Part shown: positions 14,169-63,218 of the stretch, piece by piece
How the letters are laid out: every line of letters starts with the position of its first letter
Numbering within the stretch: the stretch's first letter is position 1
DNA from: Luzula sylvatica
Lineage: Eukaryota; Streptophyta; Magnoliopsida; Poales; Juncaceae
Direction: 5' to 3'
Length of the DNA stretch: 64,000 bases
Assembly (NCBI GenBank): GCA_946800325.1
Contig: OX326956.1
Coordinates: forward strand, 14,611,167 to 14,675,166
Translations under genes and position numbers: made by a program
Notes under the pieces: generated by a model
What the model was told of the DNA's origin: nothing
The model's database searches: none
What the model saw: the letters and a program-made list of their open reading frames with translations, nothing else

Positions 14169-14191
14169 TTCTCCATTCCCAAATCAATCAA

Positions 14192-20690: not shown

Positions 20691-20756
<66 letters not shown>

Positions 20757-20757
20757 T
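20691..20757. repeat. (CT)n(TA)n microsatellite
   Basis: About 17 CT units run into about 15 TA units, between the D-like element and an E-like terminus. Confidence 0.95.
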
Positions 20758-34341: not shown

Positions 34342-35145
34342 TGGTTTCTGGTTGCTGATTTTGTTTTCGTGATAACATTGGCTACACAACTTGGAATTTT
34401 GAGTTCTTTATATCGATTTGATCGGCATCAATCATACTAGCATATAATTAGATAATTATTTAGAATAATTAGACTCCCAAGTAAATACATATGCATTTAT
34501 GAAAATCTTGTGATAGTGATATAATTGGATTATGTCACGGATTTAGAAACATGCAATGGCATGATCCCTCATAATATTTAAGTCATGGAAATGCCTTCCA
34601 TATTCACAACCACTATGATCGGTACTACGTCTCACATGGGTTAAGGCCAAAGCCGACATGGGTTATTGTAGTCATCGATGGGGTGGCAAGCGTTAAATAG
34701 GGACTGATAAGGGTTAAGGCCAAAGCCGACTTATTAGTAGTTTATTTGAACGATACGATGAGTATGGTTGTGACTTTAACCGTTCAAGCCAGTAAGGGTT
34801 GAGGCCAAAGCCGACTTGATTGGAAGTTCGGGGCATAGATAGGATGCACACACGGAACTGGGATTGTATTGGATACGATCCATCACCGAAATCCTATAAA
34901 GGTTCAAGAGTCGCATTGGATGTGATTGGATATAATCCTACCTAAATAGCGAGATCCCATTCGTCTGCCAAAGCAACTTGTGGGAGGATCGTGAAATATG
35001 GGTCTTGAGTGTTATGGACTTGGAGTCCCGTATCGGTATGAGGGTTATCGATTCGATAAAATAACACTATCATATAATCATCATATAAGCCCTATAAGAT
35101 AAGTACGCAACGTTAGTAATCAATCTTTTATTTCATTTGTAGAAT
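34342..35145 (+). other. Remainder of copia untranslated leader
   Basis: No long ORF. A motif GGTTAAGGCCAAAGCCGAC occurs near 34640, 34710 and, slightly changed, 34797. Function unknown. Confidence 0.6.
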
Positions 35146-35670
35146 ATGTCTTCTAGTAACACCAACACCATGTCGATTAGATCGACTTTAGAAAAGGATA
35201 AGCTAGTGGGTCGGAACTACTTTGACTGGCACCGAAACCTGAGAATAGTTCTCAGGCAAGAGGGCAAGAGTCACGTATTGGATACGGAACTAGTGGAACC
35301 GGGCCCCGATGCTACGGCCGAAGAAAAGGCCGCGTTTGAGAAACTTAAGAAGGACTCAAATGATGTTACGTGCCTCATGTTGGCATGTATGGACGCTAGT
35401 CTTCAAAAGCAGTTTGAGGACTCGGATGCGCACATCATAGACGTTGTGCTCAAGGAAATGTTCCAAGAGCAGGAGCGTATTGAACGGTTCAGTACGCTCA
35501 AAGAGTTGGTAAACTGCAAGATGCCTTCGGGATCTTCGGTTAGCTCTCACGTTTTGAAGGTGCAAGCTCTCATAGACCGTCTTGAGAAGCTAGGAGAAAT
35601 TGTCGAAGATTATGCAACAAGATTTGATCTTGTGTGCACTTCCTCCAATGTTTTCTCCGTTCGTGACTAA
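35146..35670 (+). pseudogene. Copia gag, 5' part, frameshifted
   Basis: The frame encodes 174 residues of a copia capsid-type Gag (GRNYFDWHRNLRIVL ... LEKLGEIVEDYAT), then leaves the Gag frame at about 35615-35620 and stops at 35670. The homologous continuation is in the next frame, overlapping from about 35600. This is a one-base frameshift in an AACAAG context. Programmed shifting is unlikely, because plant copia elements normally have one continuous gag-pol frame. Gag would form the particle that packages element RNA. Confidence 0.88.
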
Positions 35671-38600: not shown

Positions 38601-39115
38601 GTGGAAAGACATCCGGGTTGGTCATCAATGGATATACCGACGCCAGTTTCCAAACATGTGTCGATGACTTTCGATCACAAAGCGGATACGTGTTTTGTCT
38701 AAATGGTGGAGCGGTAGTTTGGAAAAGTTCCAAACAACCCACGATAGCAGACTCTACAACTGAATCGGAGTATATTGCGGCTTCCGAAGCGGCAAAGGAG
38801 GCGGTTTGGATCAAGAAGTTTGTGTCGGAGCTTGGTGTAGTCCCGAGCTTCTCGGAACCTGTAGTTGTGTATTGCGACAATACGGGCGCAATAGCACAGT
38901 CCAAGGAACCGAGGGCACATCACCGCTCCAAGCACATACTCAGAAAATTTCACTTGATCCGTGAGATTTTGCAAAGGAAGGATGTGATCATTGAGAAGAT
39001 TGATACTGAAAGGAATGTTGCGGACCCGTTTACTAAGCCACTCTCGCAAGCTAAGCACGATTATCATGCGAAAGCTATAGGTTTGAGATACCTAGAGGAG
39101 GAAGAGAGTAGTTAG
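35600..39115 (+). pseudogene. Copia gag C-terminus plus pol, with in-frame stop
   Basis: In order: the Gag zinc knuckle CFHCHKAGHWKRDC (C-x2-C-x4-H-x4-C, ~35900); protease active site LDTGCGTHIC (~36045); integrase zinc-binding WHCRLGHVNEKR...CESCLLGK and DDE core (HSDVCGP, TPQWNGVSERRNR); reverse transcriptase from ~37660 (ARLVAKGF, DVKTAFLNG, catalytic YVDD ~38117-38128); RNase H (DASFQT, ADSTTESEY) and an end near 39115. A TGA at 37232-37234 interrupts the end of integrase; the same frame resumes to 39115. With the upstream gag frameshift this copy cannot make its own polyprotein, though intact relatives could still act on its RNA. Confidence 0.92.
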
Positions 39116-42762: not shown

Positions 42763-45758
42763 CTCGACATAAATTTGTGGTTGCATAAAAAGATAAGTAT
42801 TATGTTCGTTTAAAGAATTTCTAGAACATCTAAAAAATTTAGTCATATGTTTGTTCATTTTACTTGGTTGGAATTGAGAATAAACAAAGTAACTCGTGAA
42901 ATAAGAGATCAATTTAACATCATTATTGTGTGACCATTCACAAATTTCGTGCAACACGGATGGTACTCATGATAAAATTGCCACTGCGAAAATAATGTGG
43001 TAGTTTTTTCTTCGGAATTTAACATCATTTGAAATTTAATGTTTTCTTTGGAACAATGCAATGAATATTGTATCTTATTATTGAAAATACAATTAAGGTA
43101 GTTTTTTCATCGAAGGCAAAATAATGTGGCCGAACATCACTTGTATGAATGGCTACGCAAAATAAATACGTTTACGAATTCTTTTTTCAGAAGATGATTC
43201 TTTTTTACTGCAAATGTATGTATGATATTAACGAGAATATTAAGAAATTTCCAATATATACATTATAGCCTCGTTTTTTTATCAATACTGTGTAGATCAT
43301 TTTTGGACAAATTTTAATGTACTAAATACCCACGTTCTTATTTTGCATTCATCTCGAAATATTCTCATAAAACTACACCACCAGTCATCATAATTATTTA
43401 TGATTATTGACCATTAAATTTTGTGACGTGACATCATCATTTACATTAATTTTTCTATTTGATCTTTTAATACATATAGTTTGTATTACAATTTCGTGTT
43501 TTAATTTGAACTGTTAGATGCTATGAAGTGCTTTGATCTTATTCTTTAATTTGTTGTTAGATATTTTGAAGATTATATTCAATATTATCATTTGTGTGTC
43601 ATTATTTTACGACAGTTTCTAATACATTTTTTTTAGTCATGTCATGTTTGATATTTTAAACCCAAACCATGCAATTAAAATCGGACGCTTGACATCGAAT
43701 ATAATGTCAACATGACAAGGAATATGAAAAGCTTTGTTAAAAAATTTTGCCCACGCCTGTAATTTATTTTTTTATTTAATAAAATGAATTGTTAATATTT
43801 AATATTTCTTACATATAATTTCTTTCTCTTCCAACTAATAGGTACTATCGAACTATAATTTAAAAAATGCATCAAATATATTATTTTGGATTTTCTTTTT
43901 ATTTTAGCATTTTTTATTAGTATAGTTCAAACATAATATTTTATATTTTGAATCTGTAATTTTAAGTCCAGATACTTTGCAACTATACACGATTATTATC
44001 TAATAAGCTAGCTAGAGTGATAAAACACTACTTCACATTTTTATGAAGTAATATTTCTTCCTTCGAATGTACACTTGTTTACTACGCTAACCTTTTATAA
44101 TATTAAGAACTTGTACTCTCTTAATTCTTCTCTATTTTCGGCACGAACATAATTTGTAATTTCACCAAAATAAGATAATATATTCATTCTGTTATTTCAA
44201 ATTATTTTCAATTTTATTTAGTCACATCATCACAATCATTTCAATAATTATTTTGTGTTATTTGATATAACACTAAAAATTACAAACAAAACATATAGGG
44301 AAATTCTTCAAAAATCCCCTAAATTTTCGACAAATTATGAAAAATCTCCTGTATTTTTAGAAAATCTCTTATCTTATTTAGATTCCCTAAAAAAACCTCC
44401 TATATTTTTTGTTTCTTCAAAAAGTCCCCTAACTTTTTTAGATTTCATAAAAAAAACCCCTATCTTTTTTGTTATGTTTTTAAAAATGACCATTATATAC
44501 TCCATAATTTTATTTTATAAATCTCCATAATTTAATAAATAATAAATAGCTGTTAAATTATTATAAAAAAATATTAAAAAATAAATAATACATAGATATT
44601 CAAATATTATAATAAATAATACATATATATTATAATATTATAATAAATAATATATTGATATTAAAATGTCATTTTCAATAATTATTAGTATTTTATATCT
44701 ATGTATTATTTATTATAGTATTTTATTATCTATGTATTATTTATAATAATATTTTAATATCTATTTATTATTTATTTATGATACTTTAATATTTATGTAT
44801 TATTTATTTTTAGTATTTCAATATATATTTATTATTTATAAAACTATGGAAAATGGTATAATGTTAATCTTCAAAATCATAACAAAAAGATTGGGGTTCT
44901 TAAGAGAATCTAAAAATGTTAGGGAGTTTTGGAGGAAGCAACAAATATAAGGGGTTTTGTAGAGAATCTAAAAATATAGGGGTTTTTTTTCCTAAACATA
45001 AGGAAATTCCCCAAATATATATGAGCTCAGATTTGCAAATTTCTTAGAATATATTTACTTTTTCGATATTAAAATACATAATTGATAATAATCAAGTTCT
45101 AAAAATTGAGATGTTTTTTACACTGTATAAACTGGTGTGCATTATGACTATGAGCATTATGATTAGAATACTCTAAACATCAATACCGGCGATCCCGTTA
45201 AAAACTACGTGAGGATTATGGTCGTATTCTTTTGTTTAAATTTGATTCCTATGGGTACGGGTTGCAAGGAGTATATGATATTCAATTGTATATATTTTGA
45301 AATTGATATCTTGATTTTCTCCAATAACTCAATACAAATTTGTAGTGGGATAAAAATAATAAGTATTATGATCATCTAAAGAATTACTGTAACGCCTAAA
45401 TTTTATCGTAATCTACTTGTTCACTTCATTTAGTCGGAAATGAGAATAAATAGACAAAGTAACTAACGAAATTAGAGATTAATTTAACATTATTGGTACG
45501 TGACCTTTCATAAATATCATGCAATACGATTATACGAATGATACATAGCATGATAAAATTGTCGCTGTCAATTTTTTTTTAAAAATTCATGTTTTCTTTA
45601 TGAGAATACCATGTAAAGTTTATGTTATTATTAAAAAGCAATTAAGGTAATTTTTTATGGAAAGCAAAATAACGTGTAAAACTAAACTATGAATGGCTAC
45701 ACAAAGTAAATTTTTGTATGTTCATACAATTACGAATTATTCCCTTATATATATATAT
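42763..45758 (+). repeat. 3-kb duplicated block, right copy
   Basis: Counterpart of 24253-27315; lacks the SINE. A ~35-bp extra segment (TAGTTTTTTCTTCGGAATTT) near 42995-43030 is a local duplication. No gene. Confidence 0.85.
44298..45012. mobile_element. Foldback/TIR element, right-block copy
   Basis: Same ends and mirrored arms as 25738-26579, without the SINE. The empty target is the R1 copy at 11330. Confidence 0.6.
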
Positions 45759-46579
45759 AGAAAAGCTAAAGTACTTAATTAAGTATTTTGCTTAGTGTAC
45801 TTAATATTTTTGGGCCGTTCCATTGAATTGAGATCACTTTCATGAGAATCTGATGATTGACGGAAAAATAAGGTGTCTTCCTTCCGTTTGCCATATCTCC
45901 TACTTGATATAATTTTTTATTTCCAAAACAATCGTCTGCACAGACCTTGTTCATATTCTTAGCCATGGCATGTTTTCCTTTCTCTCAAAAAATCAGCACG
46001 GTCACTCCTCATCCTCTTCTCTAGTCGCCAATAGAAGCTGCTTCTCCCTGTACGGCTTGCATTTGATGTATCTTCGCTTCGCTCATGTATGGCTCGCCTC
46101 TCCCCTAATGTCACTTCTGCCTCCCCTCTCCAGTTGTGGAAAGTGGAAACCCTAGGATCTTCTTATCTCGTAATTTGCTCCCCACATATCAAGATTTCAA
46201 AGCTCTAGCACACCCTCTAATATAATATGAGATATCATGTTTCTTCCGTCTTCCAGATTTGATGAAGTAACTAATTTTTGCGAAAAGGTGAAATCTTTTT
46301 TACTTAATTTTATTCTTCACCGGCAACTCTTTATAATAAAATATGTTTATGTGTCATCTCCGAGCCTTAATTATGAAGTTTTCAATCAATTTCATCTAAA
46401 TTATCTGAACTTGATTACTTTGCAACATCATTGACTGAAATTTAGAAGGTATTGGGATTTTGTTCTTGTTACAAGTTGGTTATTGACAATCAGCTATGAA
46501 ATTAACTTAATTTAATTAAGTACAAAATAATACATACAAAAATTGGGATCATAATTTATTTTACATATACAGGTTCTGA

Positions 46580-46790
46580 AGAGTTTGAGGGAGGCTGAAG
46601 AGATCGATGCGTCTTGAATGCTGAAGAGATCGACGCGTCTTGAAGTCTGAAGAGATTGATGAAAGCTTAAGAGATCGACGTGTTTTGAAGATCGAAGAGA
46701 TCGATGCATCTTCAAGATTGGTGAGAACGATGCATCTTGAAGGCTCTAGAGATCGACACATCTTGAAGATTTGTCCAGACTTGTGAACGT
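46580..46790. repeat. Minisatellite, ~30-bp GAGATCGATGCGTCTTGAAG unit
   Basis: About six degenerate units lie inside element A. The same unit occurs in opposite orientation in element B at 51215-51355. Confidence 0.8.
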
Positions 46791-46916
46791 CAGGAAAGGA
46801 TAAAGAGGATGTCTTACCAAGTTGTTTGTTTTATGTTATCTAGGATTTAGAAATTTGTTATTGTTCAAAAGAATGTATTGTTAAAATGGGTGCATATTTT
46901 AATGGAAAATTATATT

Positions 46917-47227
46917 TTCCCCCCAAAATCACCCAACAAATCGTGATGCAAGTCCCAATGCATTGTGGGGTGATTTGGACCCCCATTTTACACCCCAATT
47001 CTTCTTCAATTATAAAATTCTAATTAATTTTTAATTAATTATGTTCTAATTAAACTAATTAATGGTGCCACGAATTAAATTTCAATTAAAATTATTAAAA
47101 TTTTGGATTAAAATTTAATTGGAGCTGAATTGGGGTGTAAAATGAGGGTTCAAATCACCCCATGATGCATTGGGATTTGCATCACGATTTGTGGGGTGAA
47201 ATGGGGGGGGGGGGGGGGGGGGGGGGG
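46917..47227. mobile_element. MITE with ~85-bp TIRs ending in a 25-base G run
   Basis: The left arm (CCCCCCAAAATCACCC...CACCCCAATTC) and the complement of the right arm match over about 85 bp. The right boundary is hidden by G25 (47203-47227). Confidence 0.7.
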
Positions 47228-49609
47228 CCGGGGGATGAGTAGAACGGCTCTATTTTAATTAGTATAATTTTACTGTTCTATCTGTTTTCCTGTTCTGCCA
47301 CGTCATCAAGAAGATACCAGCCGTCCGATCGAGCTGTAATTTTTCTAGACGAATCAGAACCGTTCGTTTATTTCTGAACCTGGTCTACATACACCGTGCT
47401 AAATTAACTAATTTTAAATAGTTCGGATCACTATGAACCAAGTTCATTCAATGTGTTTGGCATGACAACAAATATATCTCCTCTTTCTCTCTCCTCTCTC
47501 CTGACCACAAAAACTCCACCAGAAACAAAAACCCTAGCTGGCGAGAGCAGTGCGATTTTGGAGCGATTTAGGCCATTTTTCGAGCGATTTCGGCGGCCGG
47601 TGTGACGCTGGCTTAGAGGCTGGCCTGGGTAAACCCTAGACAACGCGGGAGAGCGAAAGAAAAAACCTAGCCAGCAAGAACGGTGCGATTTTCAAGCCCT
47701 TGCGACGGACACACAGCGGAAACGAAACCCTGCCTATGTGTTCATTGTTTCTTCGTTCCATTTCCGCTGGGCAGAAAAACAGATTTTTACGACAACGATT
47801 TCACGTTTGCTGAAGGTAATTCTTTTTCTGTTCGATTTTTTCACTTCACTTTGTTGTGTAGTTAGTTGCTTGCTTGATTCATGTTCGATTTGTGCATGAA
47901 TTTGTGCATTTTGCTGGTTGTTTTTGCGTTTCCATACAAATTTCACTCCTAGGGTTTTTTTGGGATTGGTTTTTCTGTCTTTGTTGGCTGAATCAAAAGG
48001 AAAATAGATTTTTTGTTCTAATTATTTTACTGTTTCGTATTTTTCCTAATTATTCGCCAAATCCCTGCTTTTGACTCGCAGCAAGTCAAAATCCATGCTC
48101 CAACCACGGTGAAACGCCTCTCCTCTGATCCCATTACTGCTGTTCTTCATCAAGGAGTCACGCATCGGCATCTCCTGCTACTTGCTTCAGATCAGGTACG
48201 TACGGGTTGCGGCTTGATTACTGCCAGGCCTATTCCAGAAAGGTGTATATTATTTTCATTAATCTGTAGTTAATGACAAATTTATCATAATCAATCGATT
48301 AGCTTTTCGGTTTAGGGTTCGATATTGATTGTTGTATGCTTTGACATGTATCACTCTTTACAAACCTAAACCTTAATTAGTGTGCCAATTTGTCAGCGTT
48401 ATCATTCTAATTGAAATCTTATGTTATTTGAATTGCGGGCATATGTTCTGATATATCTGTTATTTTCTGGGGATGATTTCAGCGACCATGAGCTTACTGC
48501 CTGTCAACATACTGGCCACAAAAAAGATTCAGTCGAGTTTATTTGTTGCAAATAAAAAAAAATAGATTTGTTTTCTAATATACCTTTTATCATACTATTA
48601 TAGCTTATTTTACATAGTCATAACTTTGATTTATCATTTAAAGGGCAGTGGTCCATACAATGGTGGAGGTTTTATTTCTTTGTTGATCTAGCAAAAAGAA
48701 GGTGATTTACATTTAATTTTAGTTGATTCAGAGTTCATTAGACTTAATTGGTATGCATTTTTGTTTAGGTCCTTTGAATGAGACTTCATTTCAATTCAAT
48801 TAGTCAAATAACAATTGAAATTTCATAGCTGTTTTTTTTTTCTTCTTTTTCTTTTTTCATGGCATTTACATATAGGCGGGATGAAGTAGGATTGATGATG
48901 GTGTAGTCCTGGTAGCAAACTCGAATCAATTGGAGGTGGAAGGTATTATAATTAGATTATCCTTTTTGAAAGGTATTTTGGAAGCAAAAACATACACAAA
49001 GACCTTCATACTAATTTGAAAAAACTCAATTATTATAATTGGAATTTGTATTCTGAATAACAATGGGTTGCTTTATATGTTTGACAAACTCGGATCATTC
49101 ATGCCGAAATCTGCTCATATGACCCGTTCTGATTCAAATTTTTTTTTTGTCATGTTTTTTTTGTGGATACAAAATGAGGTGTTAACACGATGCTTTCTCT
49201 GGACTTGACATTTCTCTTTGGTTGACAGAATTATTAAGTTCATGCTTGGTAGTTTGCTTTGTTATGTTTAAATTATGGATGAAAGTTGGTTTCGTGCATT
49301 ACGATTGTTTTGTCGGAATTGTGATGCATACTCTTACGGGTGGCAATAATTCAACATTCGATAGTTTGCTATTGATATGGCAGCGAGAACAGTATTCTTT
49401 GATGTTTCTTTGTTTTGTGCTTGGATTGGAAATGAAATATTTTTCCATGTGAAACTGACGTATACAATGGTATTCGCTCAATTTATTCAATAGGTCAGCT
49501 AGAATAAATTGTCTACAATAATGTTTCCTCTTTTATGAAGACCACAATTTAATAAAATATATCACAAAAAGACGTGATGCCCCGCGCAATTGCGCGGGAG
49601 TATTGCTAG
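47228..49609 (+). mobile_element. Helitron with gene-like interior; 3' end certain, 5' end not
   Basis: A CCCGCGCAATTGCGCGGG hairpin (49581-49598) and CTAG (49606-49609) followed by T form the 3' end. Upstream sequence from about 47270 looks genic: TCTCTC-rich leader, AAACCCTAG motifs and exon/intron-like structure. The start is placed after the G run for convenience only. Confidence 0.55.
48082..48195 (+). other. Possible captured exon of unknown gene
   Basis: TTTTGACTCGCAG|CAAGTC and ATCAG|GTACGTACG are good plant splice sites. The 114 bases between are open in one frame (38 codons, containing HAPTTVKRLSSDP). I do not recognise the protein. It probably belongs to a transduplicated gene piece within the Helitron. 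Confidence 0.35.
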
Positions 49610-51214
49610 TAATGATAAATTCTGAAAACATTTGAATAAAACATGATTGGTATTTGTACCGATCAATATACTTGGTAAATGTGCTAGGAAATATGGTATT
49701 AATTTGATTTGCAACAGAAAATGGCTACTACAATTTTGGTACATGTGATTTGCTATATTACCGGTAGTCCGGTACAAGAATTTATATCCAATATCAGAGT
49801 TCTTTCTTTCATTCAGTCTGTATTGAAGAGCAAGAAATCTTAGTAGAGAGAGGAGTGATAAAAAAAGAGAGTTTTGGCAAGCGATGAACAGTTTCGCCGA
49901 GTAAACAAAATAATATATGAACATTTTCGAATAACTTCAAAATCACAAAAGGGTAGATGGAACCCTAGATCAACAATTTTTTCGAGTACAAAGAGCATAG
50001 AGGAGAAACGAGCAGTAGTTTTGGCGAGCAAATCTATTCTGGTGAGAACGAGAAAAAGGAAATGAAATGAGAAAGAGGGGATGCGCCATCGCCATGAATT
50101 TCTTTTGGAGAGAGAAAAAGGAAATTAAATGAGCTATGGCTTTGTTTTGGAAATAAGCATGTGAAATATAATTGTTTTGGAAATAATATTTGAGATCAGA
50201 AAGAGACAAACGGAAGACACATTTTTCCGTCCATCACCAAATTATCATCATATCTCAAATTGAATCGGATGGTTAAAACCTCTCAAGTACACAAAGCAAA
50301 ATACTTAATTAAGTACTTTTGCTTTAGTACTTAATTAAGTATTTTGATTAGCGTACTTAATACTTTTGGCCCGTTCGATTGAATTGAGATGCCTTTGATG
50401 CGAAACTGATGATTGACGGAAAGATAGGGTGTCTTCCTTCCGTTTGCCATATCTCCTACTTGATATGATTTTTATTTCCAAAACAATCGTCTCCATAGAC
50501 CTTTATTCATATTCTTAGCCATGACATGTTTTCCTTTCTCTCAAAAAATCAGCACGGTCCCACCTCATCCTCTTCTCTAGTCGCCAACAGAAGCTACTTC
50601 TCCCTGTACGGCTCGCATCTGATCTATCTTCGCTTCTCTCCTGTACGACTCCCTTAATGTCACTCCTGCCTCCCCTCTCCGGTTGTGGAAACCTTAGGAT
50701 CCCCTTATCTCGTAATTGGCTCCCCACATATCAAGATTTCAAAGCTCTAGCACCCCCTCTAATATGAGATATCATGTTTCTTCCTTCTTCCAGATTCAAT
50801 GAAGTAACAAATTTTTTCGAAAAGGTGAAATATTACATGTACAAGAATTTATATCCAATGACCGTTTTTTCATTCAGTATGTACTGATACGAGAATTTGC
50901 ACACTAATTGGTACATATAACTTGATTGATTGCCTGTACAACAATTATATGTAACATAAAGGTTCTTTTCATTCAATCCGTGATTGTATAGAAATTGTAA
51001 TATAATTGGTACATGTGATTTGAATAATTACTAGTACAAGATGTAATCATCACTCTATTTCATATCATTTCAAAATTCATCGTTACATAATTCACATTTA
51101 TACAATGCATACATCTTGATTATATTCTTTCAAACAATAACATATATCTAAATCCTAGATTTGTCGTACAACTTGGTCCAAGGCATCCCTTTTATTCTTT
51201 CATGATGTTCACAG

Positions 51215-51355
51215 GACTGGACAAGCTGCCTTCAAGATGCGTCTTCTCTTCAGCTTTCAAGATGCATCAATCTCTTGAGCCTTCAAGATGCCTCGATTCT
51301 TCTGGCTTCAAAATAATTTGACACACAGCTCAAGACGCGTCGATCTCTGGAGCAA
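51215..51355. repeat. Minisatellite, inverted relative to element A
   Basis: About four units of CCTTCAAGATGCRTCGATCT type. Confidence 0.75.
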
Positions 51356-51415
51356 AAATAAAAATATAACATCATTATTCGTCTAATATAACAAAAATAA
51401 TCTGACACACAGCTT

Positions 51416-51799
51416 TGTTAGAATTTGGACTTCATTTATAAACAAAGACCAAAAATGGCTTCTTTATTAAAATGGCCCCTTAATTAAAATAGAACGGAGA
51501 GAGAGAGAGAGTCAGGGGCAATTGCCCCTTTAATTTTCTTATAAAATTCTCTATCTTCCAATTCGTACAGATTACATGGGTTTATATAGGAACCTTATTC
51601 ATCCCCCTTACACACACCATTTCAACCATACATCATATCTATCTAAATTCTAGATACTTATATTCAAATAGACACCTATTTATTACAAGATACATCTCAC
51701 TTAATTAATCTAGACAATTCTAATAATTATCCTAATTATCCTGCCCATTAATTAATAATAATAATATTAATTAATATATTAAAAACATTAATTTTAATA
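51416..51799 (-). repeat. 3' LTR of TRIM-like element, short (GA)n
   Basis: 384 bp; about eight GA units at 51497-51511. Confidence 0.88.
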
Positions 51800-52368
51800 C
51801 TCCCCCTTAATGTTTTTTTTCGTTATTTTTTTTTTTGTTCTCGATACTCCCCCGTGATTTTTTTTCCGTCACGCTCGTCTATTTTCCTTTTTTTTTTTTT
51901 AATCGGCTTTTTTTTTTTCGAATCGTCCTTTTTTCGGATCATCTTTTTCGAATCGTCTTTTACCGAATCGTCCTCTTTTTTCTTCATCGAAATTGAGTTG
52001 CGAAACTTGTGGGAACCCGAACATACCGTCTTGGGTTGTCGTGGGCTTCTCCTACTCCAAATTTCTGCTGAACTCGATAAATCGATAATGAGTTGTGAAG
52101 TTCGTGTGAGCCCAAGTACATAACCTTCTTGGTTGTCTTGGTGACTCCTCCTCCGACTTCTACTAAACTCGATAATTCGGAAATGAGTTGTGAAGTTCGT
52201 GTGAGCCCAAGTACATAACCTATTTGGTTGTCTTGGTGACTCCTTCTCCGACTTCTACTAAACTCGATAACCGTCGTTTTTTTTTTTATATAACCGTCGC
52301 TCGATAACCGCCGCTCGATAATCGTCGATTTAGATAACCGTCAATCGATAACCTTGGCTCTGATACCA

Positions 52369-52446
52369 TGTTAGAATTTGGACTTCATTTATAAACAAAG
52401 ACCAAAAATGGCTTCTTTATTAAAATGGCCCCTTAATTAAAATAGA

Positions 52447-52544
<98 letters not shown>

Positions 52545-52827
52545 GGGCAATTGCCCCTTTAATTTTCTTATAAAATTCTCTATCTTCCAATTCGTACAGA
52601 TTACATGGGTTTATATAGGAACCTTATTCATCCCCTTACACACACCATTTCAACCATACATCATATCTATCTAAATTCTAGATACTTATATTCAAATAGA
52701 CACCTATTTATTACAAGATACATCTCATTTAATTAATCTAGACAATTCTAATAATTATCCTAATTATCCTGCCCATTAATTAATAATAATAATATTAATT
52801 AATATATTAAAAACATTAATTTTAATA
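52369..52827 (-). repeat. 5' LTR of TRIM-like element, expanded (GA)n
   Basis: 459 bp; differs from its partner almost only by about 46 GA units (52449-52540) against eight. Confidence 0.88.
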
Positions 52828-53524
52828 AGCTCAACATAATTTGAAGTCTGGGATATTATGCAAGTATTGTTTATTCAATCAAGAAACTGAATAAATATAG
52901 CAAACATATTTAGCAATTTCTAATTAGTGTTACTTAGCAAGGATGGATACTGGGTTAAACAAGAATTGAAGAGACATGAAACGTGTACAATGAATTGAAA
53001 CCAAGTAGAAAGTAATAGCATCGGGCATAAGTTATATGGGAATAAGGGGTACTAGATGTATCAATTTAATTCACCAGGGAGTTTCAGCAGATGAACAGTT
53101 TCGCCGAGTAAACAAAACAATAGATGAACATTTTCGAATAACTTCAAAATTACAAAAGGATAGATGAAACCCTAGATAAACAATTTTTTTTAGTAGAAAG
53201 AACACAGAGGAGAAACGAGCAGTAGTTTTGGCGAGCAAATATGTTCTAGTGAGAACGAGAAAAAGGAAATGAAATGAGAAAGAGGAAATGCGCCATCAAT
53301 TTGCTTTGGAGAGAGAAAAAGAAAATGAATTGAGTTGTGGTTTTGTTTTGGAAATAAGCATGTGAAATATAGTTGTTTTGGAAATAATATTTGGGATGAG
53401 AAAGAAGCTAACGGAAGACACATATTTCCGTCCATCACCAAATTACCATCATATCTCGAATAGAATCGTACGGTTAAAACCTCTTAAGTACACTAATCAA
53501 AATATTTAATTAAGTACTTTAGCT

Positions 53525-53529
<5 letters not shown>

Positions 53530-53596
<67 letters not shown>
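53530..53596. repeat. (CT)n(TA)n(GA)n palindromic microsatellite
   Basis: The run is itself an inverted repeat and joins elements B and C, whose facing ends both read AGCTTTT/AAAAGCT. Confidence 0.95.
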
Positions 53597-53600
<4 letters not shown>

Positions 53601-53796
53601 AGCTAACGTACTCAATTAAGTAAATTAACAACCATACTTAAGCATCATAAGCCGTCCGATTTAATTTGATGATGCTGAGGATATGTGATGACGGACGGAA
53701 TAAATATTCCTTTCGTTTACAATTGTTAGCTTAATTAGGTAACATAGATATATTACTTCAATTTGTAATTGTGTGTTTAATTAGGCAAGTCACTAA

Positions 53797-54169
53797 AGGG
53801 CCGTTTGGTTGAAGTTTTGAAATATGCCTTGGAATATTATATGTCAAGGAATTCAATTCCGTGGAATAGTATTCCATGACATATATAATAGTCATGTTTG
53901 GTTGATGCATATTATTTTCCTACAAATTTAGAAACTATGTGAAATAAATACATTTTTTGGAATAATTTTAGTTTTTAATATTTGAAGAGATAGAATGTCC
54001 ATGGGAATGGAGAAAAGCCACCAATTTTGGTGGTAATCCTAGAAATATGCCCATGGACATCGTGGATGACGTTACTTTATTACCTGATGTCTGAACCAAA
54101 CATGGGAATGGAATAAATTATGATGGATGCCAAGGCATAGTAATTTCAAAGCACGAACCAAACGCCCCT
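53797..54169. mobile_element. Tourist-like (PIF/Harbinger) MITE nested in element C, 373 bp
   Basis: The termini AGGGCCGTTTGG and CCAAACGCCCCT, flanked by TAA (53794-53796 and 54170-54172), fit PIF/Harbinger MITEs. The opposite arm of element C keeps the unoccupied site with a single TAA (complement at 55557-55559). Confidence 0.9.
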
Positions 54170-54302
54170 TAAGACCTTTATTTTTCATGGTTGTTTCTCG
54201 CTCTCCCTCTACCAGTTCTTTGTCCCTCTCCAAACATAAGTTTGCAAAAACATATATTATTTTCATGGTTGTTTTTCTTTGCAAGAACCAGAAGTTCGAT
54301 TG

Positions 54303-54824
54303 ACGGCTCGCATCGAATGCACTACTGCCGCTCGACCTCTTGGTACCGCTCTTCGGTTTCTCCCAGATGAAGCTCGATCGACTTTACGAACGGCTCGCAT
54401 CGAATGCGCTCCTGCCGATCGACCTCTTGGTACCGCTCTTCGGTTTCTCCCAGAAGAAGCTCGATCGACTTTACGAACGGCTCACATCGAATGCACTACT
54501 GCCGCTCGACCTCTTGGTACCGCTCTTCGGTTTCTCCCAGAAGAAGCTCGATCAACTTTACGAACGGCTCGCATCGAATGCACTACTGCCGCTCGACCTC
54601 TTGGTACCGCTCTTCGGTTTCTCCCAGAAGAAGCTCGATCAACTTTACGAACGGCTCGCATCGAATGCACTGCTGCCGCTCGACCTCTTGGTACCGCTCT
54701 TCGGTTTCTCCCAGAAGAAGCTCGATCGACTTTACGAACGGCTCGCATCGAATGCACTCCTGCCGCTCGACCTCTTGGTACCGTTCTTCGGTTTCTCCGA
54801 GAAGAAGCTCGACCTTACGACTCT
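54303..54824. repeat. Minisatellite, six 87-bp units
   Basis: Units start at 54303, 54390, 54477, 54564, 54651 and 54738 (ACGGCTCGCATCGAATGC). Because 87 is 29 codons, three plus-strand frames and two minus-strand frames stay open; I do not regard any as a gene. The opposite arm of element C has about one unit plus a ~33-bp internal duplication (55360-55425). Confidence 0.92.
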
Positions 54825-55754
54825 TCTCGAATGCTGCCACCAACCTCTTCGTCCATTGAAAAATTATATATCATAATTATAATTGGAAAAGTACATAAAT
54901 ATAATTAACCTAACCGCTCATTGTGTTTATATTCATTTATCTTTTCTAGTATATTACTTGTGAGACCATTTTACACTCTTGTAATCGCCAAATATAAAAA
55001 ATGTATTTTTCAGGCAATATTTTGCATGGCCATGTTTTACTTGTTGCATAGCTAAACGTTTCGTATCAATATCATTTTACACTCGTGCAATGTTGTCTTC
55101 CCTGTTTACTTAATAATTTGATAATACACATCATTTTTTTCGTATTTTTCACATGTAGTTTTGTGTGAAATCCACTTTTTCTTTTCCAAAAAAGTTATTT
55201 GAGAAAAGACTCAGCTTGTCGCGGTATTGCATGTCAAAATCCGCCAGATAATGCACTCCTAACTCTTAGATTGATCTAGAGAGAATCGAAGATGAGTACA
55301 AGGAGATTAGCGGCTAGAGAGCATTCGAAAAGAGTCGTAAGGTCGAGCTTCTTCTGGGAGAAACAGAAGAGTGGCAGAAGTGCATTCGATACAGAAGAGT
55401 GGCAGAAGTGCATTCGATACGATTCTTCGGTCCAACTTTTGGTTCTTAGAGAGAAAAAAATCATGAAAATAATATAGGTTTCTACAAACTTATTTTTGGA
55501 GAGGGACAAAGAACTGGTAGAGGGAGAGCGAGGAACAACCATGAAAAATAAAGGTCTTAGTGACTTGCCTAATTAAACAAACAATTGCAAATTGAAGTAA
55601 TATATCTATGTTACCTAATTAAGCTAACAATTGTAAACGGAAGGAATATTTATTCCGTCTGTCATCACATATCCTCAGTATCATCAGATTAAATCGGACG
55701 GCTTATGATGCTTAAGTACGGTTGTTAATTTACTTAATTGAGTACGTTAGCTTT

Positions 55755-55756
<2 letters not shown>

Positions 55757-55811
<55 letters not shown>
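55757..55811. repeat. (CT)n(TA)n microsatellite between C and D
   Basis: Four CT units, then about 24 TA units. Confidence 0.95.
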
Positions 55812-55813
<2 letters not shown>

Positions 55814-56593
55814 GGGCGGTTCAATGGAGTTCTTATTTGTAGTTCTTATTTGGAGTCCAAATCTTAACCCTTAATCTAACTATGATGAATGGACTGGATT
55901 TAAGAGAATCACCCGTTGCCCTAAAAATGTAGGGTTACCCTAACGAGAGTGAAGACTCCCAGCCTTCCCTAAACTTTTGCCTTCTCTCTCGCCATGCCAC
56001 TGCCTCTCTCAATCAATCAAGCTTTTACCATAGCTCGCCATGGATCCCAGCGACCTTGCTTGTTCGATCGAGTCCACTTAAATTTCTCTCCAACTATCGA
56101 GTTTCCTGGAGTGATCGTTTGTGGAAGAGCTCTCTCTCTCTCTCTCTCTATTGCGATAAAGAAGGAGTCATCTCATCTCTCCCCCCAGACTGTCGAAGGA
56201 CTCAACATATCTCCCTCTTACGCGAATGACGAAGAACTTTAGGGTTCTCATCTCTCTTTTTATCCCATCAAATTGTGTCTTATTCCTCAATTTTTCTACG
56301 AAAATTGTGAAACATATCTCCACTGATTGTTCGCTTTAGCCTCATATTGAACCAATTTTGTCCAATTAACCTTCATTTAAGAGTTGCTTCATCCTTACCC
56401 TCACCTTAATCTACTTTATTTGTCTCAACCATACTGGTCCTATTTGTACCAGTTTCTGTTGGTACCGGATGTACCAATTTTATAAGTTGCTAATGCTTCA
56501 GAAATATAGACTGTAAATCTTCACTTGCAAACCAGAGGGAGCTTATTTCTCAGGCGGAAATGAGAAGTATATATATTAAAACTGCCGTACGAT

Positions 56594-57175
56594 ATGGAAC
56601 GAAGAATCTATATTGAATACAGCACGAGTGCGATTCGACGCGCAGGATTTGTGCTTTACCCATGGACGTTAGCGATCGGGGCAAAAATAGCTCACTTTAA
56701 CTACAAGATGGAAGTGGTTCTGTCAAACTTACCACTCCATGCATGGTGCGAAAGGGAACTAGATGATCTGGTCAAGAACTTCGGGGTAATTATGCACTAT
56801 GGCCCACTCAAATCCTTGGTTGCGGTAAACAAAATCACAGTGGATGTGGTTACAATTGACCCGGAAATCAGACCCCCCTTTCTCTGGGTGCATGGGGGAG
56901 GGTTCACGAGAAAAGTAATGGTGGAGGTGCCAAAAGCAATTCAACACACTTCATACTTTTTTCGAGCTCCGGATACAACACCGTCAGAGGAATACTTTCA
57001 GCGATTAGCGGCAAATCCAATCCCCCCACCGATCAAAGCTAATCGGTTCGAAACAAACTCTCCGCTGTCCGAATATTCCCCAACCGAAATCGACTCCGCG
57101 GGGCCCGATTCAAACTCGAATCGCTCATTCTCTTCTTCCGAACAGAAAAGAATGGAAAAACATAATCTTGAATGA
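56594..57175 (+). CDS. DUF4283-like (LINE ORF1/zinc-knuckle family) protein fragment
   Basis: A 193-residue uninterrupted frame. Residues ~40-75 (NLPLHAWCERELDDLVKNFG) match the pattern of DUF4283-type regions in plant LINE ORF1-like proteins, with the LPLHxWCE core and following KSLVAV strand. The usual CCHC knuckle is not seen and the C-terminal ~70 residues are Ser/Pro-rich without a recognised domain. The ATG is the first in frame, but the true protein may have begun upstream. It lies inside element D and is probably captured or a remnant. The lack of stops over 580 bp is notable amid decayed DNA. Assignment is by motif only. Confidence 0.45.
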   Translation: MERRIYIEYSTSAIRRAGFVLYPWTLAIGAKIAHFNYKMEVVLSNLPLHAWCERELDDLVKNFGVIMHYGPLKSLVAVNKITVDVVTIDPEIRPPFLWVHGGGFTRKVMVEVPKAIQHTSYFFRAPDTTPSEEYFQRLAANPIPPPIKANRFETNSPLSEYSPTEIDSAGPDSNSNRSFSSSEQKRMEKHNLE

Positions 57176-57258
57176 ATGATACCAAATCAAACTTGCACTC
57201 CATCATAAACATTTTGTCGGAAACTGTGGCTACCAGTTGCGACTGGGTCGAATTATAC

Positions 57259-57364
57259 TACACACCCCGCTAATGAACCCCGCAATATACCCCGCATGGG
57301 CTAATTAGGAAGGTAATTAATTCATTAAATTTCCTAATTAATGAATGCGGGGAGAGTGGGGGGT
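57259..57364. mobile_element. Small insertion with 9-bp direct flanks
   Basis: GAATTATAC occurs at 57250-57258 and 57365-57373, around 106 bp whose ends are loosely inverted (ACACACCCCGC against the complement ACCCCCCACTC). It could be a tiny MULE-type MITE. Confidence 0.45.
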
Positions 57365-57679
57365 GAATTATACATTAAAACTCTTATATTACAAACTCAA
57401 AACTCCCGCAGCGTATTTTATTCCATAATCCTGAAAAAAGAAAGTAATTTTAATTATACAAAAGGTCAGCAAAATAACAAATAATTACTATTTACAAATA
57501 ATTACTAATCAAATCCTAGATGAGCCAATAATTACCAATAAGAATTAATCGACCGCCAATTAGGCTTCTAATCAACCCCTAATTAAGCCTCTAATTTATG
57601 AATCAAAATTAATTATCCCATAATTGCCGATAACATAACTAGTACCTATTGAGGCCTATTTTGATCTGATTTTGCTCAA

Positions 57680-57803
57680 TTAACCATGGATATTCGATTT
57701 ATCTCAACCCGTCCAATTACTGTTTCTCAATTAACCATGGATATTCGATTTATCTCAACCCGTCCAATTACTGTTTCTCAATTAACCATGGATATTCGAT
57801 TTC
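57680..57803. repeat. 51-bp tandem repeat, 2.4 copies
   Basis: Units starting TTAACCATGGATATTCGATT at 57680, 57731 and 57782, essentially identical. Confidence 0.93.
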
Positions 57804-58254
57804 GCTAGAGTCAGAGTCGAGCTATAGTGAGAAGAGCCGTCGTACTTACTGTTGGTATCCAATCGCCTAGCGAAGAGAGATGCAGAGGTAGAGAGTGGAG
57901 CTGTCGCGCCAGAGGAAGGATGAAGGAGGAAGGAGGAAGGAGGAAGAGGGTGAAGTTCGATCACTCGAGGAAAACTCCGCCGCACCAGAGAGGTCGTGGT
58001 TGGAAGAGGCGGAGAAAATCGTGGCTGGACTCTTTTGGTGAGATGAGAGAGAGACGTAATACAAAGTACAAGCAAAAAGTACAAGCAAGTAGGGCCGTAG
58101 GATGGGGTCAGGGAAAGAGAAGATGTTTCGAGCAAGGGCTAAATATTGGGCAGCGTTTGTTTCTATCTAAACCTCAGCCGTCCATTAAAATTAATTGAAA
58201 GGCTCTGATTTGGACTCCAAATAAAAATTACATATAAGAATTCTATTGAACCGC

Positions 58255-58257
<3 letters not shown>

Positions 58258-58291
<34 letters not shown>
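58258..58291. repeat. (TA)n microsatellite between D and E
   Basis: About 17 TA units. Confidence 0.95.
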
Positions 58292-58296
<5 letters not shown>

Positions 58297-58583
58297 GCTA
58301 AATAGAATCCACGAAAAGAATCCACAATTCGAATCCAAGGACCTAAAAATTAATACATGTACAGGCGGAGGGACTCTTTTATAAATTTCAACACACGGAG
58401 TGACTCTTTTATAAATTTCAACACACGGAGGGGCTCTTTTATAATAACGCAAAGACGGAGGGACCAAAATTTAAATAACATAACCCTCTTTTGTCTCTCT
58501 GCGCTCTCTCTTCCCCACGCTCTCTTTTTCTCCGCGCAAGCACAAACCCACAGCTTAGTAATCGGAGCTAAGCAATCAAACAA

Positions 58584-58786
58584 ATGGCCTCGTCAATGGC
58601 CACCTTAGTAATCGGAGCTCAGTTCTGTTACTCCTCATCCACGACACTCAGTCAGAAATTTCGCCGTCGATTGGTTGCCGTACGAGCAGAAGAAGACATA
58701 AACCCAGAAATTTGCAAGTACGAAGCTAAGGCAATCGATTCCATTGTTGCCAGCGAGCTTGCCAAGCCTCTCACTGCTTATTGTAG
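58584..58786 (+). pseudogene. NEET (CDGSH iron-sulfur) protein exon 1 fragment
   Basis: The frame runs from ATG through a plastid-transit-like Ser-rich start to EEDINPEICKYEAKAIDSIV and LAKPLTAYCR, and ends at a good donor (TGTAG|GTATTC). This matches exon 1 of the plant NEET protein (At5g51720-like), an organellar 2Fe-2S protein. Exon 2, which carries the CDGSH cluster ligands, is absent: sequence after the donor is unrelated. It cannot form a cluster-binding protein. A CT-rich putative promoter/leader precedes it (58490-58540). Confidence 0.8.
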
Positions 58787-58859
58787 GTATTCCCAATTCT
58801 CTTCCCTAAGCTTTAATCTCTGTTAATTTACCCTTTTCCTATTTTCTTCTCGTACAAAG

Positions 58860-59206
58860 GTGCTGGAGATCTGGGACTTTCATTCATTCTTTTTAATAGA
58901 AAAATTGAGTTTTTGTCTTAACAGAAAAACGATTATCTATTTTTATACAGCCCCGATCTGCGTCGTACCTACAGATTTTCGCCCAAACCAGGACCCGATC
59001 TGCCATCTGTCTTACTCGCAAGATCGCAATATGTTCTTCCATGGCGATGATACTACTAGAATATGATGTCTTCTTTCTCTCTTTGATGTTTGATTTCATA
59101 AATGAGGTTAATTTTGATTGAGTTAATTGGACAATTGAAGGTCAATTTGGACGTAATATTGAGATCTCCAGTATGGAGATAGATGAAAGTGCAATGGAGA
59201 TCTCCA
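58860..59206 (+). other. Chimeric spacer between captured fragments
   Basis: Short exon-like pieces without a recognisable family. A direct repeat, GGAGATCTCCAGTA, occurs near 59160 and 59197. Confidence 0.35.
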
Positions 59207-59651
59207 GTACGAATAAAAAGTGGTAGCATTAGATTGTGAAATGGTGGGGACAGGTTCTGACGGTTCTCTCGATGTTTGCGCGAGAGTTTGTTTAGTCGAT
59301 GAAAATGAAAATATTATTTTTCATTCTTATGTCGAGCCTCTTCTCCCCGTCACCAATTACAGGTATATCATATTAATTTCTCCAAATTTAAGGACCTTTT
59401 TGTAATTTTGCAATTTAAAAGTAACTTTAATATAATATTACCAGATATGAGATAACGGGCATAACAGAGGATAATTTATCGAACGCAATGCCATTAATGG
59501 AGGTATCGAAGAAAATAGAGGAGATATTATTTAATGGAGAGTCCATTTGGAGGGCAAGGATTGAAGGTGGCAAGGCTTGTCTTTTAGTTGGTCACGATTT
59601 GGATCACGACTTTTATTGTCTCCGATTAAATTATCCCGAACACTTAATTAG
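59207..59651 (+). pseudogene. DEDD 3'-5' exonuclease (At3g27970/REXO4-like), two-exon fragment
   Basis: Exon pieces ~59216-59362 and 59445-59651 join at GT-AG sites (ATTACAG|GTATAT; TATTACCAG|ATATGAG). They encode VALDCEMVGTGSDGS (ExoI, catalytic D and E), CARVCLVDENENIIFHSYVE, ITGITEDNL, and LLVGHDLDHDFYCLRLNYP (ExoII Asp), ending at LIR|GTATAT. The family trims RNA or DNA 3' ends. The ExoIII exon is missing and an in-frame TAA stands three codons before the VVALDCE motif, so this is a non-functional captured piece. Confidence 0.82.
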
Positions 59652-59989
59652 GTATATCAAACTATACTAAATAATATATTAAGTTAAAATTTATTATAAT
59701 AGAAAGTTAAAAAAGGATATATTATTTTTGGAATATCATATGTTTGTTGCTTCGTTTGAGATTATATAATTTGTCGCTGTGGAAATAATTGAACTTTGCT
59801 GTCATAAATATGATGTTTTGAAAATAAATAAAAAAAAGATTTGAGAGAGAAATGAAAATACTTCCAACTTAACTTTGCTGTGATAAATATGATGTTTTAA
59901 AATTTTATATGATACATATAAAAAATATTTTTAGTTCAAAAAATATTTCTAAAATATAGTTAATTATCCGATGAATACGATCATTAATT

Positions 59990-60985
59990 TCATATAATTC
60001 AGCAAAATATATGATTGAATTTAGCAAAATGTATGATTAAATTTAACAGAATATACGATTGAATATATTAAAATTTAGTTAATTATCCGATGAATATGAT
60101 CATTAATTTCATATAATTCAGCAAAATATATTATTGAATTTAGCAAAATATACGATTAAATTTAACAGAATATATGATTAAATTTAACAGAATATATGAT
60201 TGAATTGATCAGAATATATGATTAAATTTAACAGAATATATGATTAAATTTAGCAAAATATACGATTGAATTTAGCAAAATATAGTGAATTATCTGATGA
60301 ACATGATCATTAATTTCATATAATTCAGCAAAATATATTATTGAATTTAGCAAAATATATGATTAAATTTAACAGAATATACGATTGAATTTACTAAAAT
60401 ATAGTTAATTATCCGATGAAAACGATCATTAATTTCATATAATTCACCAAAATATATGATTGAATTAAGCAAAATATACGATTAAATTTCACAGAATATA
60501 CGATTGAATTTACTAAAATATAGTTAATTATCCGATGAATACGATCATTAATTTCATATAATTCAGCAAAATATATTATTGAATTTAGCAAAATATACGA
60601 TTAAATTTAACAGAATATATGATTAAATTTAACAGAATATACGATTAAATTTACCATAATATACGATTAAATTTAACATAATATATGATTAAATTTAACA
60701 GAATATATGATTAAATTTATCAGACTATATGATTAAATTTTACATAATATATGATTAAATTTAGCATAATATATGATTAAATTTAGCAAAATATACGATT
60801 GAATTTAGCAAAATATAGTTAATTATCTGATGAACATGATTATTAATTTCATATAATTCAGCAAAATATATTATTGAATTTAGCAAAATATACGATTAAA
60901 TTTAGCAGAATATATGATTAAATTTAGCAAAATATACGATTAAATTTAACAGAATATACGATTGAATTTACTAAAATATATTTTT
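59990..60985. repeat. Minisatellite of ~22-bp AATATATGATTAAATTTAAC units
   Basis: Dozens of degenerate units alternate with a longer GATGAATACGATCATTAATT segment (59970, 60090, 60298, 60415, 60534, 60828), giving a second-level period of 120-290 bp. It lies in what was an exonuclease intron. Confidence 0.9.
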
Positions 60986-61449
60986 AAAAAATGCTTAATT
61001 TTTGGTTTAAAAAAAAATTAACAGAATATATGGTTAAATTATATTGATTTTAAAAATGCTTAATGTTTTAATTATCCGTAAATTAAGCAATATAATTTGG
61101 TTTTAAAAAAATATATAATTTGGAGTTTCTAAAAGTAGAAAAAAATAAACTGTTATTCAAAATATAAATGACACAAATTCAAAACGAATAAGAAATAAAT
61201 AACAAGCAATATATATATTTATTACAAGCAAGTTCTTCAAGTCTCCTATATACACTCTCAAACAAAGTACAAAAAAATAACAAAAATATATTGATGAAAT
61301 TAATACAGCACATATCAAATAAAAACCAAGCTCTTTTTTCACATACAACCCCTTATAATTAACTGAGCACTTTCATCCGAGAAGGGTTATATATGAAAAA
61401 TTACCTACTTAGAACACGTGAATTTCAAAGGTTTCTGACCCGAGGATTA
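60986..61449. other. AT-rich part of element E
   Basis: No gene seen. Confidence 0.5.
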
Positions 61450-61946
61450 GGTTTCAGTTGGCTCGAATACTCTCCGTCGCTGCTAGAGACCGCAGAGTTC
61501 CGAGCATAACCGGTTGCGGGCTCGCTGTAATCGCCAGAATATTCTGGACTCGCCATTTGCACTTGTCGCATTTTAGTGCGCATAATGGATGCATACGAAC
61601 TCGACTCGTAATCAGAGCCAGAACCGAAGTTTGTGCTTTAACCCGGCCTCATTCCTTCGTTCAAGTCTTCGAGAGATACCTCCCCCTCCAATGCACGAAC
61701 GATCTGTGCAATTCGTACGTTGAAACTCGGCAAATTAAAATATGAACGAAAGAAAGAAAATATAAAAATAAAATAATTTTATACTTGGCTCATTTTGGGG
61801 CGCCATTTTGCAGAATGATGAACAGCGACAGCAGCAGAAGTCACCATGCGCGCCATCTCCATCGGGTCGTAGTTCCCTCGTAAGCGTGGATTTGCCAAAT
61901 CATCGTAGTTCCCATCCGTCAGTGCTAGTCCCAAAATCGGCCTTGC
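61450..61946 (-). pseudogene. PERK-type receptor kinase, last two exons
   Basis: On the minus strand, exon 61946-61785 (54 codons) encodes ARPILGLALTDGNYDDL...NPRLRGNYDPMEMARMV...WRPKMSQ. An 81-bp GT-AG intron (61784-61704) follows, then an exon reading IVRALEGEVSLEDLNEGMRPG. This is the C-terminal end of the kinase domain of proline-rich extensin-like receptor kinases, including the conserved RPKMSQ-IVRALEG splice junction. A TAA at 61640-61638 interrupts the tail; the PERK-like tail then continues (SGSDYESSSYAS, ASPEYSGDY). Catalytic lobes, membrane segment and extracellular domain are absent. Confidence 0.88.
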
Positions 61947-62260
61947 CTGAAATAAATAAACAAAATTTATAATTTATTTTTATTATAAGGATATATATGA
62001 AATAAATAAAAATATCAAACATACCCCTGCATATCAATCAAAACCTAAACTAATATTCACCTGAATATAATTTAATTACTCAAGGACAAAACAGTAGTTT
62101 GACATTTGAAAATTTAAAGGTGTGAAATTTTGTACCTCAGCGATGTCGTTTACTCTCTTCAAAAATCAGAGGAAGAGGCGACGACCAGTAGCTCGATCCC
62201 ATGTCCTCCTCACTCCTTGCTGAACTATTTGACAGTTGACACAAAACTGAATTTTAATTT
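61947..62260. other. PERK intron remnant and unidentified minus-strand exon-like piece
   Basis: The intron upstream of the PERK exon (minus strand, ending TTATTTCAG) runs back to a donor-like GCTGAG|GTACAA at 62137. The sequence before it is not PERK and is not recognised, so different donors may have been joined here. Confidence 0.35.
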
Positions 62261-62264
62261 ATAC

Positions 62265-62800
62265 TTAATTCTTCAAAAATCAGAAGAAACCCCCTGATTT
62301 TGAGCTAAAAACAACAAAGTATCAGTCCAAATCATCAAAGAAACAATAAATTACTGCCAGAAAGATGCCACTAGATGTTGCCTCCAGTATCTACCAAAAC
62401 AACTCGAAAAATCAGAGAAGAAAACCTGATTTTGAGTCACAAACAGAAATCGACCAGTCGAAATCAACAAAGAACCCAAATATTACTACTAGAAACCTTT
62501 CCCTAGTTGGCGCCTCCATTATCTACCAAAACAAATCGAAAAATTAGAAGAAAAAAACCTGATTTTGAGTCAAAAACATCAACGTACCAGCCCAAATCAA
62601 CAAAGAACCATAAAATTACGACCATAAACTTTTCCCTAGCAATCGTGAAGTGCAAATCTACCAAAACAAATCGAAGAATCAGAAGAAGAAAACCTAATTT
62701 TGAGTCAAAAACATCAACGTACCAGTCCAAATCAACAAAGAACCAAATAATTACAACCATAAACTTTCCCCTAGCAATCGTGAAGTGCAATACAGTGTCT
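62265..62800. repeat. ~134-bp tandem repeat, about four units
   Basis: CTACCAAAACAAATCGAA recurs at about 62390, 62522 and 62657, with an older diverged unit from 62265. Frames on both strands stay open by chance. Confidence 0.85.
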
Positions 62801-63172
62801 TCTAGGGTTTAGCGCACCAATTCGCCGAAAAGTGCGATGTATCTAGGGTTTTGCTAAGACGGAAGAGCAAAGAGAAAGGCAGCGACTTCTAGGATCTATC
62901 ACGAAAATGGTATTGTACGTAGAGCAATAGAGCAGTGAAGGGGGATCGGAATTACAAAGCTTGGAAGTTTGTAAAAAGGGGGAGGGGGTATATGATGATA
63001 CGACGGATTTCATGATTGCTCCATAGACGCAAAAGGCAAGGCGCCTCTTTCACTCGCCGGAGAAGGGAGAAGGGAGAAGTGAGAAGGCGAGAAGCAAAGG
63101 AAGGAAGAAGAGACCTCCGTCTCATGGATTCGTTTTGTGGATTCGTTTCGTGGATTCTCCTTGGCACGCCTG
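62801..63172. other. Right end of element E
   Basis: A leader-like segment with TCTAGGGTTT motifs (62800-62850) and the right TIR (63125-63172). No protein recognised. Confidence 0.45.

Positions 63173-63210
<38 letters not shown>
63173..63210. repeat. (TA)n microsatellite right of element E
   Basis: About 17 TA units. Confidence 0.95.

Positions 63211-63218
<8 letters not shown>

Follow-up and report, generated by a model that had tools for sequence, protein, structure and literature searches.

An array of inverted-repeat elements joined by TA-rich microsatellites in Luzula sylvatica, probably built of non-autonomous Mutator-like elements

Mutator-like elements (MULEs) stacked in mixed-family arrays, joined by microsatellites and not nested in one another, have been described as SaTar in guayule, rice, sorghum and citrus, with a minority of copies bearing 9-10-bp duplications and with fusions produced by joint loss (PMC5907723). 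The same source classes the rice element Micron as rSaTar2, with terminal inverted repeats (TIRs) resembling those of an autonomous MULE. In pineapple, 46.1% of the full-length Ac-mMITE elements, which are miniature inverted-repeat transposable elements (MITEs), were clustered, and slippage was held responsible for their GA tracts, which are mostly 5', and their TC tracts, which are 3' (PMC8449440), and the MuTAnT/AutoMuTAnT elements of Medicago are MULEs lying in (TA)n (PMC4486113). Here, a window of 64,000 nucleotides from Luzula sylvatica (C1:14611167-14675166, within a 445-Mb genome) was analyzed, in which positions 45760-63172 were filled by five inverted-repeat elements, A to E, belonging to four families. 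We consider it highly probable that this is a modular array of non-autonomous MULEs, built up by successive insertions into (TA)n tracts, each next to an element already present.

The Luzula array matches the SaTar arrays and the Ac-mMITE clusters; an initial annotation of this DNA had taken a serial array of several families for something new, and such arrays were already published (PMC5907723, PMC8449440). Microsatellite flanks, linear arrays of unlike elements and 9-10-bp duplications outside microsatellites, all of them SaTar features, were found here. The SaTar report likewise describes non-autonomous MULEs, TA and other dinucleotide tracts, and defective MULE relatives within arrays, whereas the elements described here are longer (about 1.8-4.9 kb, where non-autonomous SaTar elements measure 0.2-1.9 kb), one of them carries captured gene fragments and a transposase relative retains an open frame of 771 amino acids (PMC5907723). 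Ac-mMITE shares the (TA)n target, the GA/TC termini and the 9/10-bp duplications, but consists of MITEs of 210-570 bp for which an autonomous element was not found (PMC8449440). MuTAnT is similar in its (TA)n sites, its Jittery-like autonomous partner and its variable G-rich tips, and differs in being mostly 200-300 bp long with 9-bp duplications and in that the sections consulted describe no arrays (PMC4486113), while Micron, likened by description, is a small (TA)n-targeting element of 380 bp and a single family (PMC5907723).

Self-comparison and alignment of the termini bore out a chain of five elements each with its own inverted ends (Table 1), and the coordinates of tracts and elements left almost no unique DNA between them, as had been proposed. 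The aligned TIR stretches measured 154 bp (84% identical) in A, 145 bp (80%) in B, 207 bp (97%) in C, 124 bp (81%) in D and 42 bp (86%) in E, those of C and D including a few bases of the adjoining tract. Joints B/C, C/D and D/E consisted of TA, CT or GA repeats of 34-71 bp, and TA tracts of 14-49 bp were present at both array edges and at all joints except A/B, so that the earlier description of a microsatellite-joined chain holds for three joints and fails for the fourth. Dinucleotide tracts are hard to assemble, and a misassembly could have brought unlinked elements together; this was rejected as the main explanation and is very improbable, since comparable joints, with the elements combined differently, occur at many loci, the tracts are short, and the window is internal to a contig of 77 Mb (the assembly comprises six contigs of 61-77 Mb that make up about 431 of the 445 Mb). 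No Rfam match was obtained across the window.

Elements A and B, 88% alike across 529 bp at their left ends and 460 bp at their right ends, represent one family, which leaves four families instead of the five first counted. They are fused at 50325/50326, where the expected terminal bases are absent, suggesting that the joint was removed by a deletion. The terminal GAAAAGCTAA, first thought to be common to A, B and C, was found at the left end of A and at both ends of C; the right terminus of A is AAAGCAAAAG, that of B is GAAAAAAGCTAA (two additional A), and the left terminus of B, of the GAAAAGCTAA type, was lost through the fusion. The kinship of A and B would suit a segmental duplication of one element as the source of the array, but C, D and E are unlike families, and among 84 genome matches the A/B junction was spanned by more than 1 base only in the window's own matches; this explanation was rejected as extremely improbable.

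Nested inserts in A and B, of kinds other than array members, account for about 4 kb of the 17-kb array. The 2.7-kb insert in A ends in a GC-rich hairpin followed by CTAG at its 3' end, occupies an A/T site around which no target duplication was seen, and contains an inner inverted repeat (46919-47209); the 1.4-kb insert in B has near-identical terminal repeats with AGCT on either side. A copy of A in locus L012 (C3:21.8 Mb; 95-98% identical, also lacking the first 48 bp) and B copies located on C2, C3 and C4 (93-98%) do not contain these inserts, and empty sites were seen in L012 and L009 respectively, indicating that the inserts came later. The B copies on C2 and C4 had TA on both sides. In locus L010 the place expected for the TA tract of a B copy (5157-5200) is taken by a Helitron-like 3' end, with a GC-rich hairpin and CTAGT; Helitrons too may use such TA tracts.

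The association of these elements with TA tracts was scored in two surveys. The first covered 24 loci (four plus twenty) drawn from the 84 genome matches, together with the window, and yielded 66 recognizable ends: 22 touched (TA)n, 25 reached it through a pure purine run and five lay within 12 bp (52/66 in TA), while four had TA farther away and ten had no four-unit run within 100 bp, the two ends at the A/B fusion both being scored as outside TA. A genome search with the C end gave at least 41 matches, two of them in the window, four in loci of the first survey and one (C4:67198368-67198398) adjoining the fetched end L055 and not scored separately; the remaining 34, as 105-bp ends, and four leftover ones of the 84 genome matches made up the second survey (n = 38). 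In TA were 33 of these, one showed a GA run filling the visible 80 bp (L044), and four were outside TA (L041, L045, L055 and L073). Automated scoring had put 34 in TA; L041 was reassigned because it has a 10-bp duplication and its (AT)4 is at a distance of 10 bp. L055 itself joins another element across a short TA stretch.

In total, 85 of the 104 ends, nearly all A/B/C-type or small relatives, lay in (TA)n or no farther than 12 bp from it, compared with 0.86% of 20,000 random positions, which were drawn from the same fetched sequences, beyond 200 bp of any scored end, and so represent those sequences and not the whole genome. The proposal that microsatellites are targeted is therefore strongly supported for the A/B/C end types; D and E were represented by the window and a few incidental copies. 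Five C-type ends on C2 and C3 (L060-L063 and L068) had one common flank beside a TA tract, and this unit has therefore been multiplied, either by duplication or as part of a larger repeat. Another end family, (GAGAG)AATAACTAAAAAACTTGTACAAG and similar, abuts TA tracts next to several array-type elements (Table 1).

Target duplications were readable in a few copies. In L029 the element was bounded by a perfect 10-bp duplication, GTTACACTAA, and a shorter relative of C at C4:7506928-7507938 (L041/L045) by another, TTAGTCACTA; both duplications adjoin a TA run and both copies have GAGA...TCTC termini, and these two elements as well as the one in L028 begin with GAG and finish with CTC. No target duplication was found for L026 or the others inspected. 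Long TIRs together with 9-10-bp duplications characterize MULEs, and the A/B/C-type elements are thus Mutator-like. Copies with fixed target duplications, which the initial annotation had held to speak against TA targeting, do occur as a minority, namely the two perfect cases, each of which adjoins a TA run; published families are likewise mixtures of microsatellite copies and 9-10-bp-duplication copies (PMC5907723).

Compound tracts were counted in 24 sequences (273,323 bp) as rows with at least four TA and at least four GA/CT units. All 22 rows (two of which are halves of the single B/C joint) had the order TA-GA or CT-TA and none the reverse, and in 17 of them the GA/CT side met a recognized element end. 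Because the elements themselves have GAGA tips, the compound tract between B and C can be read as the tip of B, (CT)n, followed by the target, (TA)n, and the tip of C, (GA)n. The GA/CT tracts extend the elements' own tips, an origin that the 10-bp duplications found here directly support, and, given the uniform tip order, (CT)n and (GA)n were rejected as separate insertion targets; the GA/TC tracts of the pineapple MITEs were likewise put down to slippage at the tips (PMC8449440). In a model set out in PMC5907723, cut-and-paste insertion is replaced by homologous recombination, through which circular intermediates with repeat filler enter the microsatellite. This would suit the often unequal length and kind of the two flanking tracts, but the single order of the non-TA tracts, as if grown from the tips, and the existence of 10-bp duplications make it very unlikely.

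Neighboring elements parted by nothing but a microsatellite were seen by eye at 14 of the inspected places, including three elements in a row in L014, pairings of a small with a transposase element on both C3 and C6, and further cases in L010, L017, L019, L020, L023 and L032. C-type ends faced E-type (L037) and D-type ends (L049, L070) as well as other small elements (L040, L055), and MITE-MITE-MULE was among the combinations recorded. The families thus combine in different orders at different loci, and in the window as at the other loci the arrays of unlike elements were linear, uninterrupted by another array member. The window also holds a smaller array at 19577-21034, made up of a D-like element (19577-20690; inverted ends 82% identical over 50 bp), (CT)18(TA)14 and an E-like end (CTAACAAGAATCCACAAAAAGAATCC).

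An autonomous relative with a MULE transposase had been looked for, and an autonomous-looking one was found. Locus L015 contains a stop-to-stop frame of 771 amino acids with FAR1, MULE and SWIM domains (PF10551, PF03101, PF21056 and PF04434), and together with its neighbor L034 it lies within a 4605-bp element whose ends are of the A/B type; this element is flanked by TA on either side and adjoined by a small element. Two further full-length relatives on C6 (4551 and 5245 bp) are sited in TA and have interrupted frames. Among the best 120 of 1493 related proteins, a Juncus protein was 71% identical over 18%; the best 42 of the 1493 were 42-53% identical, the named ones coming from Rhynchospora, Carex, Oryza brachyantha and pineapple (45-50% for the pineapple relatives). 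No relative of known structure was present for protein P0001 at E 0.01, and a 'Toxin_17' match on the transposase end, below its cut-off, was taken as chance. A 10.6-kb element at C1:64.54-64.55 Mb (L033) was considered as a further autonomous candidate and rejected: judged by eye, the long frames in it resemble those of Copia, and it was taken as a non-autonomous element with a nested retroelement.

Several observations weigh against an array built by successive MULE insertion into TA. No transposase gene was recognized in the window array, and although MULE transposase is present in elements of the A/B end type, their ends are only about 67-78% like those of A. By the scoring rule, 19 of the 104 ends were outside TA, and the 104 are not independent, some not being separate insertions: besides the five ends already mentioned, L043 and L046 have a common flank, as do L031, L071 and L072, and L065-L067 resemble one another. 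The B copy on C3 had TA on one side only, with a Helitron-like end opposite. The duplication in L028 is of 9 bp with one mismatch, target duplications are unreadable within pure TA, and no empty site was recovered for any TA insertion. In L023 an E-like piece stands where the end of an A-like element belongs; this contact was read as a fusion, though it could be called an exception to non-nesting. The assignment of D and E draws on the form of their ends, their TA setting and the company they keep, from which we infer that they moved like the A/B/C types.

A FAR1-type MULE transposase acting in trans would move the elements, D and E included, and would prefer TA targets; on insertion 10 bp of TA would be duplicated, and replication slippage would lengthen the TA tracts and the GA/CT tips to yield the (CT)n(TA)n(GA)n joints. 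Were 10 bp duplicated within (TA)n, no fewer than five TA units would be left to either side of the element, so that the target would not be consumed and both sides would stay open to insertion. The array had been proposed to be a self-propagating landing pad in which each insertion brings or expands a TA tract; the sparing of the target agrees with this in part, while the GA/CT repeats come from the tips. That every insertion raises the local odds of the next, with growth beyond independent TA targeting, is a tentative proposition: TA tracts at the edges and at three joints and the frequency of neighboring elements elsewhere are in its favor, but the longer TA flanks of occupied sites in Medicago (about 15 repeats per flank, against about 9 in empty sites; PMC4486113) may be explained by slippage.

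The claim that the elements carry genes was upheld for E, in which recognizable gene fragments were found (Table 1), and not for C or D. Element C contains an 87-bp unit repeated 5.9 times (54303-54812; 96% matches), whose length, divisible by three, gives rise to three open frames; an 'Exotox-A_target' match on the repeat frame (28 bits, cut-off 25, no single stretch passing) was considered chance. Element D has an open frame of 193 amino acids (56594-57175), for which a homologue search at E 0.001 was empty and a weak match to PF20375 (E 0.025) fell below the cut-off of that profile. Element E includes AT-rich tandem repeats (59996-60988) and exon-like pieces of two host-type genes, one of them matching Arabidopsis AT5g51720, which we take to be a NEET protein; an HTH_AraC match on this piece was taken as chance. 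Pack-MULEs are MULEs with host gene fragments, and E resembles them in its contents, its MULE status being putative, but differs in its short TIR and its place in a TA-joined array.

Elsewhere in the window, an F-box-type gene region with matching frames is duplicated in two copies (7240-9355 and 13985-17296), with a zf-RVT-domain frame (14709-15629) between the parts of the second. Frames at 35143-39115 look Copia-like by eye and have a relative nested in L033, and a transposase-like fragment with DUF4371 (PF14291) lies on the minus strand at 29076-30011, next to a frame (28083-28814) with no Pfam match.

Table 1. Positions of the array features in the window and of one further end family at other loci
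Feature	Position	Strand	Remarks
Outer (TA)7 tract, left array edge	45746-45759		
Element A, non-autonomous MULE-like	45760-50325		about 1.85 kb without nested insert
TIRs of element A	45762-45932 / 50171-50325		right terminus worn, fused to B
Nested insert in A	46897-49609		Helitron-like 3' end
Element B, family of A	50326-53527		about 1.79 kb without nested insert; left terminus lost
Nested insert in B	51415-52827		long terminal repeat (LTR) type
Compound tract (CT)n(TA)n(GA)n, B/C joint	53528-53598		71 bp; B side with two additional T
Element C	53599-55754		TIR about 200 bp, 97% identical
(CT)n(TA)n tract, C/D joint	55755-55811		57 bp
Element D	55812-58257		TIR about 124 bp, 81%
(TA)17 tract, D/E joint	58258-58291		34 bp
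Element E	58292-63172		short imperfect TIR (42 bp, 86%)
Exon-like piece in E, captured, matching AT5g51720	58584-58787	+	PDB 3s2r/3s2q, E about 7e-8
Two exon-like pieces in E, RNase_T-type exonuclease gene	59241-59363, 59446-59652	+	PF00929, E 3.9e-6, pieces joined
Outer TA tract, right array edge	63173-63211		
(GAGAG)AATAACTAAAAAACTTGTACAAG-like ends	L020 near 3600 and 5760; L029 6085-6150; L012 6230		

These results extend the list of plant genomes in which MULE arrays are stacked at microsatellites, and tie the GA/CT joints to the element tips through copies with clean target duplications. The open FAR1-MULE frame belongs to an element of the same end type and lies in TA; the pineapple study sought its own equivalent and found none (PMC8449440). 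TA targeting thereby becomes testable with one protein and one mini-element. It is possible, though doubtful at present, that TA targeting is a trait of one FAR1-type MULE lineage, including the 771-amino-acid frame, its pineapple relatives and perhaps AutoMuTAnT, and that arrays grow by positive feedback, each insertion leaving two TA targets; if so, captured gene exons would be stacked side by side.

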